A stretch of DNA of 64,000 nucleotides from contig NZ_JAFRDR010000012.1 of assembly GCF_017377795.1 (NCBI RefSeq), positions 1 through 64,000 on the forward strand, written 5' to 3'. Source of the DNA: Williamsia soli. Lineage in GTDB: Bacteria; Actinomycetota; Actinomycetes; Mycobacteriales; Mycobacteriaceae. Each line of letters begins with the position of its first letter. Within the stretch, counting starts at the first letter, position 1. The notes under the pieces are model-generated. The model was not told where the DNA came from, searched no databases, and worked only from the letters and a program-made list of their open reading frames with translations. A program made the translations under genes and the position numbers. This document shows, one piece after another, positions 32,755-36,412 of this stretch.

Positions 32755-33723
32755 ATGTCGTGGCCACAGCATCGGATCGCGGTCCTCATGCTCGCGCCCG
32801 TCGTCGGGTTCGACGCGACCATTCCGTCGATGGTGTTCGGCCAGGCGGAAGACGATGCCGGCAACCCGCTCTACGTCGTGGAGATGATCGGGTTGGACGG
32901 CAGCCCGGTGAGCACCCTGTCGGGTTACGACATCGTGCCCGCCCGGGGATCCGACGCACTCGCCGACGCCGACACCGTGATCGTCCCGGGGACACGGATG
33001 GAGCAGGTGCGCTTCGACGGGACATTTCCCGATGAGCTGCGTGCGGCGTTCGATTTCATCCGGCCCGGAACCCGCATGGTGTCGATCTGCACGGGCGCCT
33101 TCGCGCTCGCAGCTGCGGGCATTCTCGACGACAGACCGGCCACAACCCACTGGGGCAAGGCCGCTGACCTGCGGCGGCTCTATCCCTCGGTGCGACTCGA
33201 CGAGGACGTCCTGTTCGTCGACGATGGCGACGTGTTGACGTCGGCCGGCCTGGCCGCGGGCATCGACCTCTGTCTCCACATCATCCGTACCGACCACGGG
33301 ACCAAGATCGCCAACCGGGTGGCCAAGTACTGCGTGGTGCCGCCCTGGCGCGATGGTGGGCAAGCACAGTTCATCGACTCTGCAGTGCCGGACAGTACCG
33401 ACAACTCGACGTCGGCGACCCGGAGTTGGGCGGCCGAAAACCTCACCGAACCGCTCACGGTGGCGCAGCTTGCCGGGCGCGCGAACATGAGCGTGCGCAC
33501 GTTCAATCGCCGGTTTCGGGAGGAGACCGGCGACACCCCGGCAATGTGGGTGCGCAAGCAGCGAATGCATCGGGCACGCGAACTGCTCGAGTCCCACGAC
33601 CTGCCGATCGACGAGGTGGCCAGGCGGTCCGGCCTGGCCACCGGCGCGAACCTACGGCACCAACTGCGCAAGCATCTCGGGATGTCGCCGACGCGATACC
33701 GGCGTACTTTCGGTGGCGAGTGA
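32755..33723 (+). CDS. GlxA-type AraC family transcriptional regulator (DJ-1/PfpI domain)
   Basis: 322 residues. N-terminal DJ-1/PfpI-like domain (residues ~5-175) with the nucleophile-elbow Cys in MVSICTGAFALAAAGIL, and C-terminal AraC double helix-turn-helix (residues ~225-320: LAGRANMSVRTFNRRF and VARRSGLATGANLRHQL). Such regulators sense small metabolites; the ligand here is unknown. Likely regulates the divergent MFS gene and itself. ATG start, leaderless promoter. Confidence 0.9.
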   Translation: MSWPQHRIAVLMLAPVVGFDATIPSMVFGQAEDDAGNPLYVVEMIGLDGSPVSTLSGYDIVPARGSDALADADTVIVPGTRMEQVRFDGTFPDELRAAFDFIRPGTRMVSICTGAFALAAAGILDDRPATTHWGKAADLRRLYPSVRLDEDVLFVDDGDVLTSAGLAAGIDLCLHIIRTDHGTKIANRVAKYCVVPPWRDGGQAQFIDSAVPDSTDNSTSATRSWAAENLTEPLTVAQLAGRANMSVRTFNRRFREETGDTPAMWVRKQRMHRARELLESHDLPIDEVARRSGLATGANLRHQLRKHLGMSPTRYRRTFGGE

Positions 33724-33747
33724 GGCGCACGCCCGAGGCGCACCGGA

Positions 33748-33753
33748 TAGGGT
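33748..33753 (+). promoter_or_regulatory. -10 element of a leaderless promoter (MBL-fold gene)
   Basis: TAGGGT followed by exactly 7 nt and the ATG at 33761. The TANNNT-N6/7-start arrangement recurs in this window and marks leaderless transcripts in actinobacteria. Confidence 0.5.
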
Positions 33754-33760
33754 TGTCGCC

Positions 33761-34435
33761 ATGAGCGCAGCGGCCCCGATCTCCGACACCTACACCGGCG
33801 ACTTCAGCGAATCCGAAGTGCCACAACGCAAGTCCACGCCCAAAGCGACGATCGTCAAGCTGTCCGTCGGCCCGATGGACAACAACGTCTACGTGATCAC
33901 CGACAAGAGCACCGGCAAGGCATTGCTGATCGATGCCGCGAACGATGCCGACACCCTGATCGAGTTGATCAAGTCCCACGGCAACATCGAGCTGATCTTC
34001 ACCACGCATTGGCACCCCGACCACTGGATCGCGCTCGAGGAAGTGGTCAAGGCAACCGGGCTGCCCACCGCGGCCGGCCGAATCGACGCCGAACCCATCC
34101 AGGTGCACACCGACCGGCTGATCGACGAGGGCGACGTCATCGAAGTCGGCGACCTCCGCCTCGAAGCCATTCACCTCAAAGGCCATACCGATGGCTCGAT
34201 CGCACTGTTCTTCGACGACGACGTGACCCACCTGTTCACCGGGGACTCACTCTTTCCGGGCGGCGTGGGTAAAACTCAGACGCCCGAGGACTTCGACTCG
34301 CTGATCGACCATGTGAAGACAAAGTTGTTCGACCGCTTCGACGACAGCACCGTCGTCTATCCCGGTCACGGCCTGGACACCACGATCGGTGCCGAGCGTC
34401 CCCAGCTCGAGGAGTGGCGCGAGCGCCGTTGGTGA
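33761..34435 (+). CDS. MBL-fold metallo-hydrolase
   Basis: 224 residues. Complete binuclear zinc motif set: THWHPDH (HxHxDH), His in LKGHTDGS, Asp in TGDSLFPG and His in YPGHGLDT, like glyoxalase II/hydroxyacylglutathione hydrolases. Substrate not known; mycothiol- or persulfide-linked thioesters are possible in this order (inference). Matches M. tuberculosis Rv1637c in type and position near uvrA. The frame is open 16 codons upstream, but the -10 placement and homology favour 33761. Confidence 0.88.
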   Translation: MSAAAPISDTYTGDFSESEVPQRKSTPKATIVKLSVGPMDNNVYVITDKSTGKALLIDAANDADTLIELIKSHGNIELIFTTHWHPDHWIALEEVVKATGLPTAAGRIDAEPIQVHTDRLIDEGDVIEVGDLRLEAIHLKGHTDGSIALFFDDDVTHLFTGDSLFPGGVGKTQTPEDFDSLIDHVKTKLFDRFDDSTVVYPGHGLDTTIGAERPQLEEWRERRW

Positions 34436-34438
34436 TTG

Positions 34439-34987
34439 CTACAGCAGGGTGTCCCACCGCGCCGCACGTAATTGTCCAGCCGTTTGACGCGCCGCGATGA
34501 GCCGGGCCAGTCCCCGCACCTCGTCGTCGGTGAAATAGCTGGGGTTCGACATCATGGGCGCGCGTAGTTGCTCACACGCGGCCAGCTCAGGCGTGGCCTG
34601 CATCAGCGATCGCGCGATGTGACCGCTGCGCCCCAGACGAATCGCCTGGTAGTGGAGCTTGTCCTGCGGTGCGCCAGTTCCGTTGACGAACTCGGAATCG
34701 GCGATGGGTTCCTGCGGCTTCACGCCGGTGACCCATCCGTACTCATAGATGCCGGGGTCCTTCGGGCCGGTGACCCACAACGCGACGAGGTCGCCCTCAC
34801 GCACCAGGGTGCGGCGCCCCGAGCGGGCACTCAGACACCAACTGTCAGCGAGTGTGACGGTCGACGACACGCCCATCGAAATCATGTTATCGAGCGTCCC
34901 GAAGTAGTCGGTTCCGGTTGCCGGATTGCACTTGATGATCCAGCATCCGACATCCGTGCGAGTGATCGGCAATACCCTTCCTTCCAT
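34439..34987 (-). CDS. EVE/PUA-like domain protein
   Basis: 182 residues. The N-terminal half resembles EVE-domain proteins of the PUA superfamily, which read modified bases: CWIIKCNP, then REGDLVALWVTG, then GIYEYGWVTG. The C-terminal half (residues ~115-182) is helical and unassigned. ATG 34987 is preferred over the TTG at 35005. Convergent with the MBL gene (3 bp between stops). EVE proteins are often linked to modification-dependent restriction, but no restriction gene is present here, so a housekeeping role is as likely. Confidence 0.55.
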   Translation of the reverse strand: MEGRVLPITRTDVGCWIIKCNPATGTDYFGTLDNMISMGVSSTVTLADSWCLSARSGRRTLVREGDLVALWVTGPKDPGIYEYGWVTGVKPQEPIADSEFVNGTGAPQDKLHYQAIRLGRSGHIARSLMQATPELAACEQLRAPMMSNPSYFTDDEVRGLARLIAARQTAGQLRAARWDTLL

Positions 34988-35107
34988 TGTTTGAGGACTA
35001 GCCAAGCGGACTATTGGGTACCCCGGGCCCGCCAGGTCTATAGGCTCGACGGAGTCCGTCCGTTAAGCAGGTTCGACACAGACCAATGTCTTGAGGAGGC
35101 CCTTTAA

Positions 35108-36412
35108 ATGCTGATCCGCCGAATTGCCCGTCCCTTGCTCGCGAGCGCGTTCATCGCCACTGGGATAGATGCGATCCGACGCCCAGAACAGCTAGCCGAA
35201 ACCGCGCAGCCGTTCGTCGACAAGGCTAAAACCCAACTCCCCCCGCAGGTTGCCGATCTGATCCCCGCAGACGCACAGGTCGTCGTGCGGGTGAACGGAG
35301 CCGTGCACATCATCGGTGGTCTCGCTCTCGCCACCGGAAAATTCCCCCGCCTGGCCTCCTTGACCCTGGCCGGAGTCGTCATTCCCACGACACTGGCGGG
35401 CAACGACTTCTGGAACGAGACCGACCCCCACGAGCGCGCCGAGCAGCAGGCCCACTTCATCAAGAACCTCGGTCTCCTCGGCGGACTGCTGATCGCCACG
35501 GTCGACACCGAGGGCAAGCCGTCGCTGGCGTGGCGGGGTCGTAAGGCCGCAGCCGTCGCCGGAGACAAGGTCGTCGCGGTGCTGCCGTCTGGTTCCTCCG
35601 GGTCCACCGACGCGCTCGCAGACAAGGCCTCGCACCTCGCCGAGGTGGTCTCCGAACGCACGAGTGAACTGGCCGAGGTCGCTGCCGATCGCGGCGGCAA
35701 GTTCGCGGACGTGGCGTCCGACCGGGCGTCGGTGCTGGCACAGATCGCCTCCGAGAAAGCAGCCGCGTTCGCCGACGTCGCCTCTGAACGTGGTTCAGAG
35801 CTCGCCGAGGTCGCAGCCAAGCGCGGTTCTGAGTTTGCCGACGTCGCGACCAAGCGTGGTGCGGTGCTCGCCGGTGTCGCGTCCGAGCGGGCATCGGAGC
35901 TGGCTGATGTCGCGTCCAAGAAGGGCAGCAAGTTCGCCGACGTGGCAGTCGGCCAGACCGCTGCCCTGAGCAAGGCCGCGTCCAAGCGGCAGGCCAAGTT
36001 GGCCAAGCAAGCCGGCAAGAAGCAGGCCAAGCTCAGCAAGCGGGCTGACAAGAAGCAGACGGAGCTGATCAAGGCAGCCGCCAAGAAGCAGGCTGAATTG
36101 AGCAAGGTCGCTGCCAAGAAGCAGGCCACGCTCACTGCGCAAGCCGTCAAGAGCGGCGCGAACGCCAAGGGCGTCGCGGCCGAACGCAGTGCTGAGCTCG
36201 CGGATTCGGCATCGAAGGCATGGCAGTCGACCAACGGCTACGCCGAGCAGTACCTGGCGACTGCTCGCGAGAAGGCTCCGGTGGTCGCCGACTCTGCCCG
36301 CGTCTACGCGGCACAGCTCGCCGAACGGGCCGCCGATGAGAGCGTCAAGCTGTCCGGTCGGGCCAAGAAGCAGGCCAAGAAGGCACAGAAGGCTGCGGCC
36401 AAGTTCCAGTGA
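35108..36412 (+). CDS. DoxX-like membrane protein with C-terminal 11-residue repeat domain
   Basis: 434 residues. Residues 1-135 resemble the DoxX membrane fold, with hydrophobic segments at ~7-20, ~62-77, ~83-98 and ~118-132, and the start MLIRRIARPLLASAFIATGID. Residues 175-372 are an unbroken series of 11-residue repeats (type SELAEVAADRG / GKFADVASDRA). They are mixed-charge in the first ten copies and strongly Lys-rich (AKLSKRADKKQ) in the next five. The tail (KQAKKAQKAAAKFQ) is histone-H1-like. The 11-residue period predicts a long continuous amphipathic or right-handed coiled helix. GAGGAGG lies 8 nt before the ATG. Function unknown; membrane-to-nucleoid or envelope spacer roles are speculation. 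Confidence 0.8.
   Translation: MLIRRIARPLLASAFIATGIDAIRRPEQLAETAQPFVDKAKTQLPPQVADLIPADAQVVVRVNGAVHIIGGLALATGKFPRLASLTLAGVVIPTTLAGNDFWNETDPHERAEQQAHFIKNLGLLGGLLIATVDTEGKPSLAWRGRKAAAVAGDKVVAVLPSGSSGSTDALADKASHLAEVVSERTSELAEVAADRGGKFADVASDRASVLAQIASEKAAAFADVASERGSELAEVAAKRGSEFADVATKRGAVLAGVASERASELADVASKKGSKFADVAVGQTAALSKAASKRQAKLAKQAGKKQAKLSKRADKKQTELIKAAAKKQAELSKVAAKKQATLTAQAVKSGANAKGVAAERSAELADSASKAWQSTNGYAEQYLATAREKAPVVADSARVYAAQLAERAADESVKLSGRAKKQAKKAQKAAAKFQ
35630..36223 (+). repeat. 33-bp tandem repeats encoding 11-residue units
   Basis: Eighteen consecutive 33 bp units without a single insertion or deletion, encoding residues 175-372 of the DoxX-like protein. Units share the pattern small-charged-hydrophobic-A-x-V-A-x-x-(R/K)-x. 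Units 1-10 are like SELAEVAADRG, units 11-15 are Lys/Gln-rich, and the last three are more degenerate. Confidence 0.85.

Follow-up and report, generated by a model that had tools for sequence, protein, structure and literature searches.

Introduction

LEA group 3 proteins are built on an 11-residue consensus with nonpolar residues at positions 1, 2, 5 and 9, acidic or amide residues at positions 3, 7 and 11, and basic residues at positions 6 and 8 (PMC10295645, PMC8123400), and 11-mers of this kind have been reported in contact with model membranes (PMC8123400). In Rhodococcus jostii, the Lys-rich end of MLDS is described as binding DNA to lipid droplets (PMC5504291). In Mycobacterium smegmatis, MSMEG_3255 ('DoxX subfamily') is reported to fall by log2 3.16 and 5.18 in a sigF mutant and to have the sequence GTTT-N15-GGGAA 36 nt upstream; the SigF consensus given for this organism is GTTT-N14-19-GGGTA, with GGGAA among the listed sites (PMC4694148). 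The RDD gene MSMEG_3254 falls by log2 0.96 and 3.85 in the same source (PMC4694148), and the MSMEG_3255-3254 pair has been confirmed as an operon (PMC5741613).

Here, we analysed a gene from a 64,000-nt stretch of Williamsia soli DNA (contig NZ_JAFRDR010000012.1, positions 1 to 64,000; hereafter the window), whose product joins a DoxX domain to a long array of 11-residue repeats. In the open-access literature, we found no publication on the repeats of this protein and no paper joining DoxX with desiccation.

Results

A DoxX domain followed by 11-residue repeats

The gene, its parts and its upstream neighbours are arranged as follows:

33713..34435, forward strand: MBL-fold hydrolase gene, upstream neighbour of the DoxX gene
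34439-35005, reverse strand: 188-residue ORF between the MBL and DoxX genes, no Pfam or NCBIfam match
35093..35099, forward strand: ribosome-binding site GAGGAGG, read from the sequence upstream of the DoxX gene
35108..36412, forward strand: ORF of the DoxX-repeat gene, ATG start, 434 aa
35108..35533, forward strand: DoxX core, residues 1-142 (PF07681 E 3.1e-9, hydropathy, conserved columns)
35534..35635, forward strand: linker, residues 143-176, with a weak hydrophobic stretch at 147-163
35636..35965, forward strand: ten charge-balanced 11-residue units, residues 177-286 (sequence layout)
35966..36130, forward strand: five Lys/Gln-rich 11-residue units, residues 287-341 (summed charge +15)
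36131..36229, forward strand: three more in-phase units, residues 342-374 (sequence layout)
36230..36409, forward strand: C-terminal stretch, residues 375-434, with three units past a 7-residue phase shift and then a Lys/Ala-rich end

The DoxX profile PF07681 matches residues 6-97 of the window protein (E 3.1e-9; 37.8 bits against a curated cut-off of 23.6) and is found at E 0.1 or better in all 47 aligned family members. The window gene ranks seventh of the eight DoxX places in its genome, with 41.1 bits (other seven, 28.2 to 80.0), and the genome contains no second copy of it, the next best match having an E-value of 0.085. Hydrophobic segments were located by hydropathy at about residues 1-23, 56-80, 79-101 and 114-134, and the core is left through the motif DTEGKPSLAWR, which is conserved as DTEGKPSLxWR. 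Positive charge at the N-terminus (RR) and just where the fourth segment is left (KPSLAWRGRK) would place both ends, and hence the tail, in the cytoplasm. Judged by hydropathy and charge, the DoxX core probably anchors the protein in the membrane by four helices with both ends cytoplasmic; MSMEG_3255, the presumed M. smegmatis member, is listed with two membrane helices, not four (PMC11898655).

Residues 177-374 form 18 in-phase 11-mers with no indel, and the self-similarity of the tail stands far above that of shuffled sequences (z of 14.1 at lag 11, 16.0 at lag 22 and 14.3 at lag 33). An earlier note, made from the sequence of the window, had described about 18 uninterrupted repeats behind a DoxX-like domain, and both features hold. 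The note had also called the array exact and without indels; the second part stands for residues 177-374, but the copies have diverged, as Tandem Repeats Finder reports two short 33-bp arrays at 35769-35920 and 35982-36132, with 73% and 71% matches, respectively. Since they are only 71-73% alike at the DNA level, the repeat copies must be old. Nor do the repeats stop at residue 374, as extra units start at residues 382, 393 and 404, past a 7-residue phase shift. The switch from mixed charge to Lys-rich units was likewise recovered: the ten balanced units (starts 177-276) sum to -4, the five Lys/Gln-rich units (starts 287-331) to +15, and the last three have charges of +1, 0 and 0. The end of the protein is Lys/Ala-rich, and the term 'histone-H1-like' that had been applied to it describes composition only.

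The repeat-tailed protein is a conserved family

In a survey of 61 whole genomes, including that of the window, a homologue was present in 51, namely in 33 of 37 genomes of the window's family and in 18 of 24 from other families of the order. The lag-11 z exceeded 5 in 30 of the 34 tails read from the own family and in 5 of 16 from the other families, where tails are mostly short or unpatterned (11 of the 16 read). The tails of L030, L048, L049, L050 and L053, all from other families, are 11-periodic and not in LEA order; those of L030, L050 and L053 are short with 11-residue repeats of their own and might have independent origins.

A scan of named genomes, from which the best 80 of 495 matched relatives were kept, gave 10 loci from Williamsia (one titled Kitasatospora), 16 from Gordonia, 38 from Rhodococcus and its segregates, 13 from Mycobacterium and allies, and one each from Skermania, Aldersonia and Antrihabitans. 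Long repeat tails are present in 78 of these 80 loci, and the lag-11 z is 4.7 or more in 79 of the 80 tails, the exception being L105, which is cut by a contig end; the tail-bearing protein of L058 is short (219 aa). The repeat-tailed DoxX protein is thus a conserved family and not one odd protein. The retention of DoxX alone in close relatives, which had been put forward as a sign of neutral expansion, was not seen near the window. The gene is held by 104 of 118 sampled genomes of the genus of G036, presumed to be Mycobacterium, and two of these 104 copies (from 3.2 and 3.3 Mb genomes) carry internal stops. The locus L057 (NZ_JNYV01000007.1), titled Kitasatospora arboriphila, is Williamsia-like throughout, and its genome is probably mislabelled. 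Rhodococcus globerulus and Rhodococcus sp. ARC_M6 each have two DoxX-repeat genes in separate places (L077/L091 and L078/L088).

The comparison of copy number that the earlier note had suggested showed that relatives differ: protein length is 434, 423, 403 or 381 aa among loci of the window's genus, the number of units per tail ranges from 5 to 20 across the family, and the close Rhodococcus loci L082 and L083 differ by exactly 22 residues. We also considered whole-unit steps in orthologue lengths (among 225 unequal pairs, the difference is a multiple of 11 in 60 and equals 5 mod 11 in 55); these length differences were not used as support because the pairs are not independent and the linkers vary too.

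The repeat unit follows the LEA group 3 order

The window tail and 78 other long tails were reduced to 64 non-redundant tails with 774 units. The pooled unit reads L/F/W-A-E/D-V-A-R-E/D-R-G/A-x-E, with nonpolar residues in 99, 96, 98 and 77% of units at positions 1, 2, 5 and 9, D/E/Q/N in 80, 65 and 64% at positions 3, 7 and 11, and K/R/H in 51 and 90% at positions 6 and 8; glycine makes up 48% of position 9. Among the 6300 distinct ways of arranging these residue classes, the LEA-3 consensus ranked first with a score of 0.800, by a small margin over the next (0.787). The 18 units of the window protein agree on average at 5.5 of the 9 consensus positions, compared with 3.38 for shuffles (maximum 4.11 in 2000 shuffles); its Lys-rich units reach no more than 3 to 5 of 9, as they have Lys in place of acidic residues. 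Scored over eight consecutive units, 78 of the 80 members, all but L058 and L105, outscore every one of 629 other ORFs called mechanically in these loci (window protein, 0.78 versus 0.58 for the best other ORF). As judged from these sequence patterns, a resemblance to LEA group 3 proteins is well supported.

We rejected LEA membership by the Pfam profile LEA_4 (PF02987), which gave no match over its cut-off: one homologue scores 11.4 bits against a cut-off of 51.1, the profile is absent for the window protein and among the 25 families listed for 47 members, and it was found in 0 of 41 genomes, in a search in which control genomes were equally silent. The window protein, which has hydrophobic DoxX segments in residues 1-134, is also not hydrophilic and soluble throughout, as is expected of group 3 LEA proteins.

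Helix phase is kept and the tail is under selection

Of 710 steps between successive units, 656 are exactly 11 residues and 675 a multiple of 11; the remaining 35 are all 3, 4 or 7 mod 11. Shifts of these three classes keep the nonpolar side of an alpha-helix in line. When insertions 1 to 10 residues long were planted in simulated arrays, the unit detector recovered them evenly and hence has no preference for these classes; as the 35 events are partly shared by descent, we claim no exact probability. The dN/dS of the tail is 0.05-0.18 in 12 of 13 close pairs, and the 13th pair shows no replacement at all. The kept helix phase together with purifying selection indicates that the tail is a selected, helix-forming sequence, and the earlier suggestion of a LEA- or apolipoprotein-type segment is thus borne out as a DoxX domain joined to a selected, helix-phased 11-residue array.

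The mean hydrophobic moment is 0.30, versus 0.24 in shuffled units, and amphipathicity is therefore weak; acidic residues are centred 136 degrees from the nonpolar centre, and Arg 8 lies only 35 degrees from it. We accordingly dropped strong amphipathicity as an argument for lipid binding. Such weak amphipathicity is nearer to that of LEA motifs than to that of a strong lipid binder. Among 47 homologues, weak profile matches at E 0.1 or better point to apolipoprotein in 21, to YtxH in 10 and to apolipophorin III in 5, and those at E 0.01 or better to ATP synthase subunit b in 12 and to phasin in 9, with scores below the curated cut-offs wherever scores were shown. For PF01442 (apolipoprotein A1/A4/E), the best E-value in homologues is 5.9e-7, and scores of 16.6 and 16.8 bits fall below the cut-off of 90. 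The window protein itself has no apolipoprotein, phasin, YtxH, subunit b or LEA profile match, and none to PF01442 at E 1.

A Lys-rich block in Williamsia and Gordonia

An inner 33-residue stretch with a net charge of +8 or more is present in all 10 Williamsia tails and 7 of 14 Gordonia tails, and elsewhere in 3 of 38 Rhodococcus, 1 of 13 Mycobacterium and 0 of 3 other tails. Across 79 tails, the tail middle has a median net charge of -1, and the last 30 residues are positive in 76. Binding of DNA or another polymer by a basic distal half, as proposed in the earlier note, is not supported as a general function by these counts. Since few tails outside Williamsia and Gordonia have the Lys-rich block, any DNA binding would be no more than an addition in particular lineages and could apply to Williamsia and part of Gordonia.

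A SigF-type promoter element in mycobacterial members

The SigF-type element GTTT-N15-17-GGG(T/A)A begins 34-36 nt upstream of the start codon in 12 of the 13 named mycobacterial loci and was also present in 30 of 30 further mycobacterial loci, the best-scoring 30 of 104, of which at least two look like genomes already in the 13-locus set. In controls, it occurred in 0.18 of 13 random windows and upstream of 0 of 74 other plus-strand genes. The element lies further upstream in Skermania, Aldersonia and Antrihabitans (3/3). In Rhodococcus, a relaxed pattern, chosen after some of the loci were seen, finds it in 22 of 37 loci (control 0/129). It is absent from the Gordonia (0/16) and Williamsia (0/10) loci and from the window gene; the window genome encodes a SigB/F/G-type factor that scores over its cut-off.

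We presume that MSMEG_3255 is the M. smegmatis member on the basis of the doxX-RDD gene order and the promoter spacing in Mycolicibacterium loci, not of its sequence. The FhaA interactome table pairs MSMEG_3255 with Rv2458 (PMC11898655). Rv2458 is a homocysteine methyltransferase gene, and the pairing may therefore be a slip. For log-phase cells of repeatedly spray-dried lines, an intensity ratio of 1.3 (log scale) is given for MSMEG_3255 (PMC5445863), a rise that is not specific because it is shared with much of the SigF regulon.

Gene neighbourhood

The MBL-fold hydrolase gene is present in 54 of the 80 related loci, and in 41 of the 80 its end is no more than 320 nt upstream of the DoxX gene; relatives of the intervening 188-residue ORF (34439-35005) occur in 5 of 80 loci, each belonging to the window's own clade. 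We make no claim of an operon with the MBL gene, which is close in many loci but separated by this opposite-strand ORF in the window's clade. Outside the mycobacteria, the DoxX-repeat gene often lies between the MBL-fold hydrolase and a HelR-like RNA polymerase motor, with uvrA, a universal stress protein gene and uvrB nearby (loci among the 80: HelR-like 53, uvrA 42, universal stress protein 39, uvrB 23). The HelR-like gene scores 740.8 bits, below the HelR family cut-off of 1100. This putative RNA polymerase recycling motor (L083:7340-9661) is directly downstream of the DoxX gene in many loci, and in some Gordonia a 240-residue protein without Pfam match (L064:7175-7897, cluster c43) is encoded between the two. 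In mycobacterial loci, the DoxX-repeat gene often has a DUF6328 gene before it and an RDD gene after it. In the window's clade, only the MBL gene is kept, set apart by another ORF, and the gene that follows is ptsI, in the opposite orientation. Because the gene company changes among lineages, the neighbourhood gives no firm function.

Discussion

We propose that the product of this gene is a stress protein tethered to the membrane and similar to group 3 LEA proteins (apolipoprotein-like), a proposal to which we attach about as much belief as doubt. The DoxX core would anchor the protein while the tail lies in the cytoplasm, presenting a nonpolar stripe (positions 1, 2, 5 and 9, with position 4 beside it), an acidic far side and Arg/Lys at positions 6 and 8. 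In the dilute cytoplasm, the tail would probably be loose, as LEA-3 motifs are, and the frequent glycine at position 9 (48%) argues against a stiff tail in solution. Upon water loss or at a lipid surface, we infer that the tail switches from coil to alpha-helix. Under stationary-phase, osmotic or drying stress, it could then cover and steady the inner membrane face or an adjoining lipid droplet, and the Lys-rich stretch of Williamsia and of half of the Gordonia members may add attraction to an anionic surface. Both the lipid contact and the protective effect are what we infer from this arrangement, and the lipid-surface mechanism seems to us the most economical account.

The main rival of the lipid-surface reading is a hendecad coiled-coil stalk, in which the tails would pair, straight or right-handed and up to ~30 nm long, and cluster DoxX proteins or hold a partner off the membrane, in a manner comparable to ATP synthase subunit b. 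A right-handed hendecad core expects nonpolar residues at positions 1, 4, 5 and 8, whereas these positions are nonpolar in 99, 65, 98 and 3% of units, and position 8 is Arg, Lys or His in 90%. A copy number that varies freely between 5 and 20 units would also be odd for a fixed-length spacer, and the glycine content of position 9 does not suit a stalk either. Due to these observations, we consider a stalk unlikely, even though a packed helix would go well with the strict helix phase and MSMEG_3255 belongs to the FhaA interactome (PMC11898655). Profile matches also speak for a stalk: F0F1 subunit b is weakly matched by 12 of 47 homologues and the coiled-coil protein Wag31 by two, and the solved structures hit by the profile include subunit b chains and designed helical bundles.

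One might also speculate that the protein is a membrane-to-nucleoid or polyanion tether, in which the Lys-rich units would keep DNA or another polyanion bound close to the membrane. The +15 charge of five units of the window protein, its basic end and the positive last 30 residues of 76 of 79 tails would fit, and there is a precedent in MLDS, an apolipoprotein-like protein of a related genus with a DNA-binding Lys-rich end (PMC5504291). Such a tether seems quite improbable when set against the distribution of the strong basic inner block, which is found in 17 of 24 Williamsia and Gordonia tails but in 4 of 54 of the rest, and against the median charge of -1 in the tail middle. If the DoxX domain alone were functional, a neutral low-complexity expansion of the tail could account for the differing copy numbers, such as the exact 22-residue difference between L082 and L083, and for the existence of DoxX proteins with short tails in other families of the order. 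It is scarcely credible in view of the long tails in 78 of 80 named loci and the residue classes that are kept although copies are only 71-73% alike at the DNA level, and neutral slippage was ruled out by the low dN/dS of the tail (0.05-0.18) and by the conservation of helix phase in all 35 off-register steps.

Returning to the tethered LEA-like protein, the survival of drying and long dormancy in mycobacteria, rhodococci and their kin is only partly explained, and the protein described here is a family-wide candidate. It also suggests a testable role for a gene that is listed only as 'DoxX subfamily, putative' in the published SigF list. To our knowledge, such protection is otherwise known from soluble proteins; if the proposal is true, membrane-tethered LEA tails would be a fixed-in-place version of LEA protection. 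Tentatively, and with more doubt than confidence, we extend this to the possibility that mycolic-acid bacteria possess a membrane-tethered LEA family, in which ~5 to 20 LEA-3 units are kept by a DoxX anchor on the inner side of the plasma membrane and the gene is turned on with SigF in mycobacteria. On water loss or in dormancy, the tails might fold onto the membrane and lipid droplets and steady both, the Lys-rich ones catching the nucleoid.

Compared with known systems, the family shares with group 3 LEA proteins of plants and animals, and with the bacterial DosH of Deinococcus radiodurans, an 11-residue unit in many tandem copies, nonpolar positions 1, 2, 5 and 9, charged or amide residues at positions 3, 6, 7, 8 and 11 and, in its mycobacterial members, a putative stress-type regulation, for which the window, Williamsia and Gordonia loci show no SigF-type element. 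It differs from them in being tethered by DoxX, in being Arg/Leu-rich rather than Lys/Thr-rich and in scoring below the LEA_4 profile cut-off. Exchangeable apolipoproteins, apolipophorin III and bacterial phasins likewise have a long 11-based amphipathic helix, in accordance with the weak matches in up to 21 of 47 homologues, but are soluble and strongly amphipathic, whereas the tail described here is weakly amphipathic and anchored. MLDS of R. jostii, compared by its description only, combines an apolipoprotein-like part with a Lys-rich end in a related genus and is stress-protective, and no DoxX anchor is described for it in that source (PMC5504291). Residues 6-97 place the window protein over the cut-off of the DoxX family PF07681, to which it adds the DTEGKPSLxWR exit motif and the repeat tail. 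Lastly, in ATP synthase subunit b, which 12 of 47 homologues weakly match, a long 11-periodic helix likewise extends from a membrane anchor, but the family described here has a charged unit position 8, glycine-rich units and a variable copy number.
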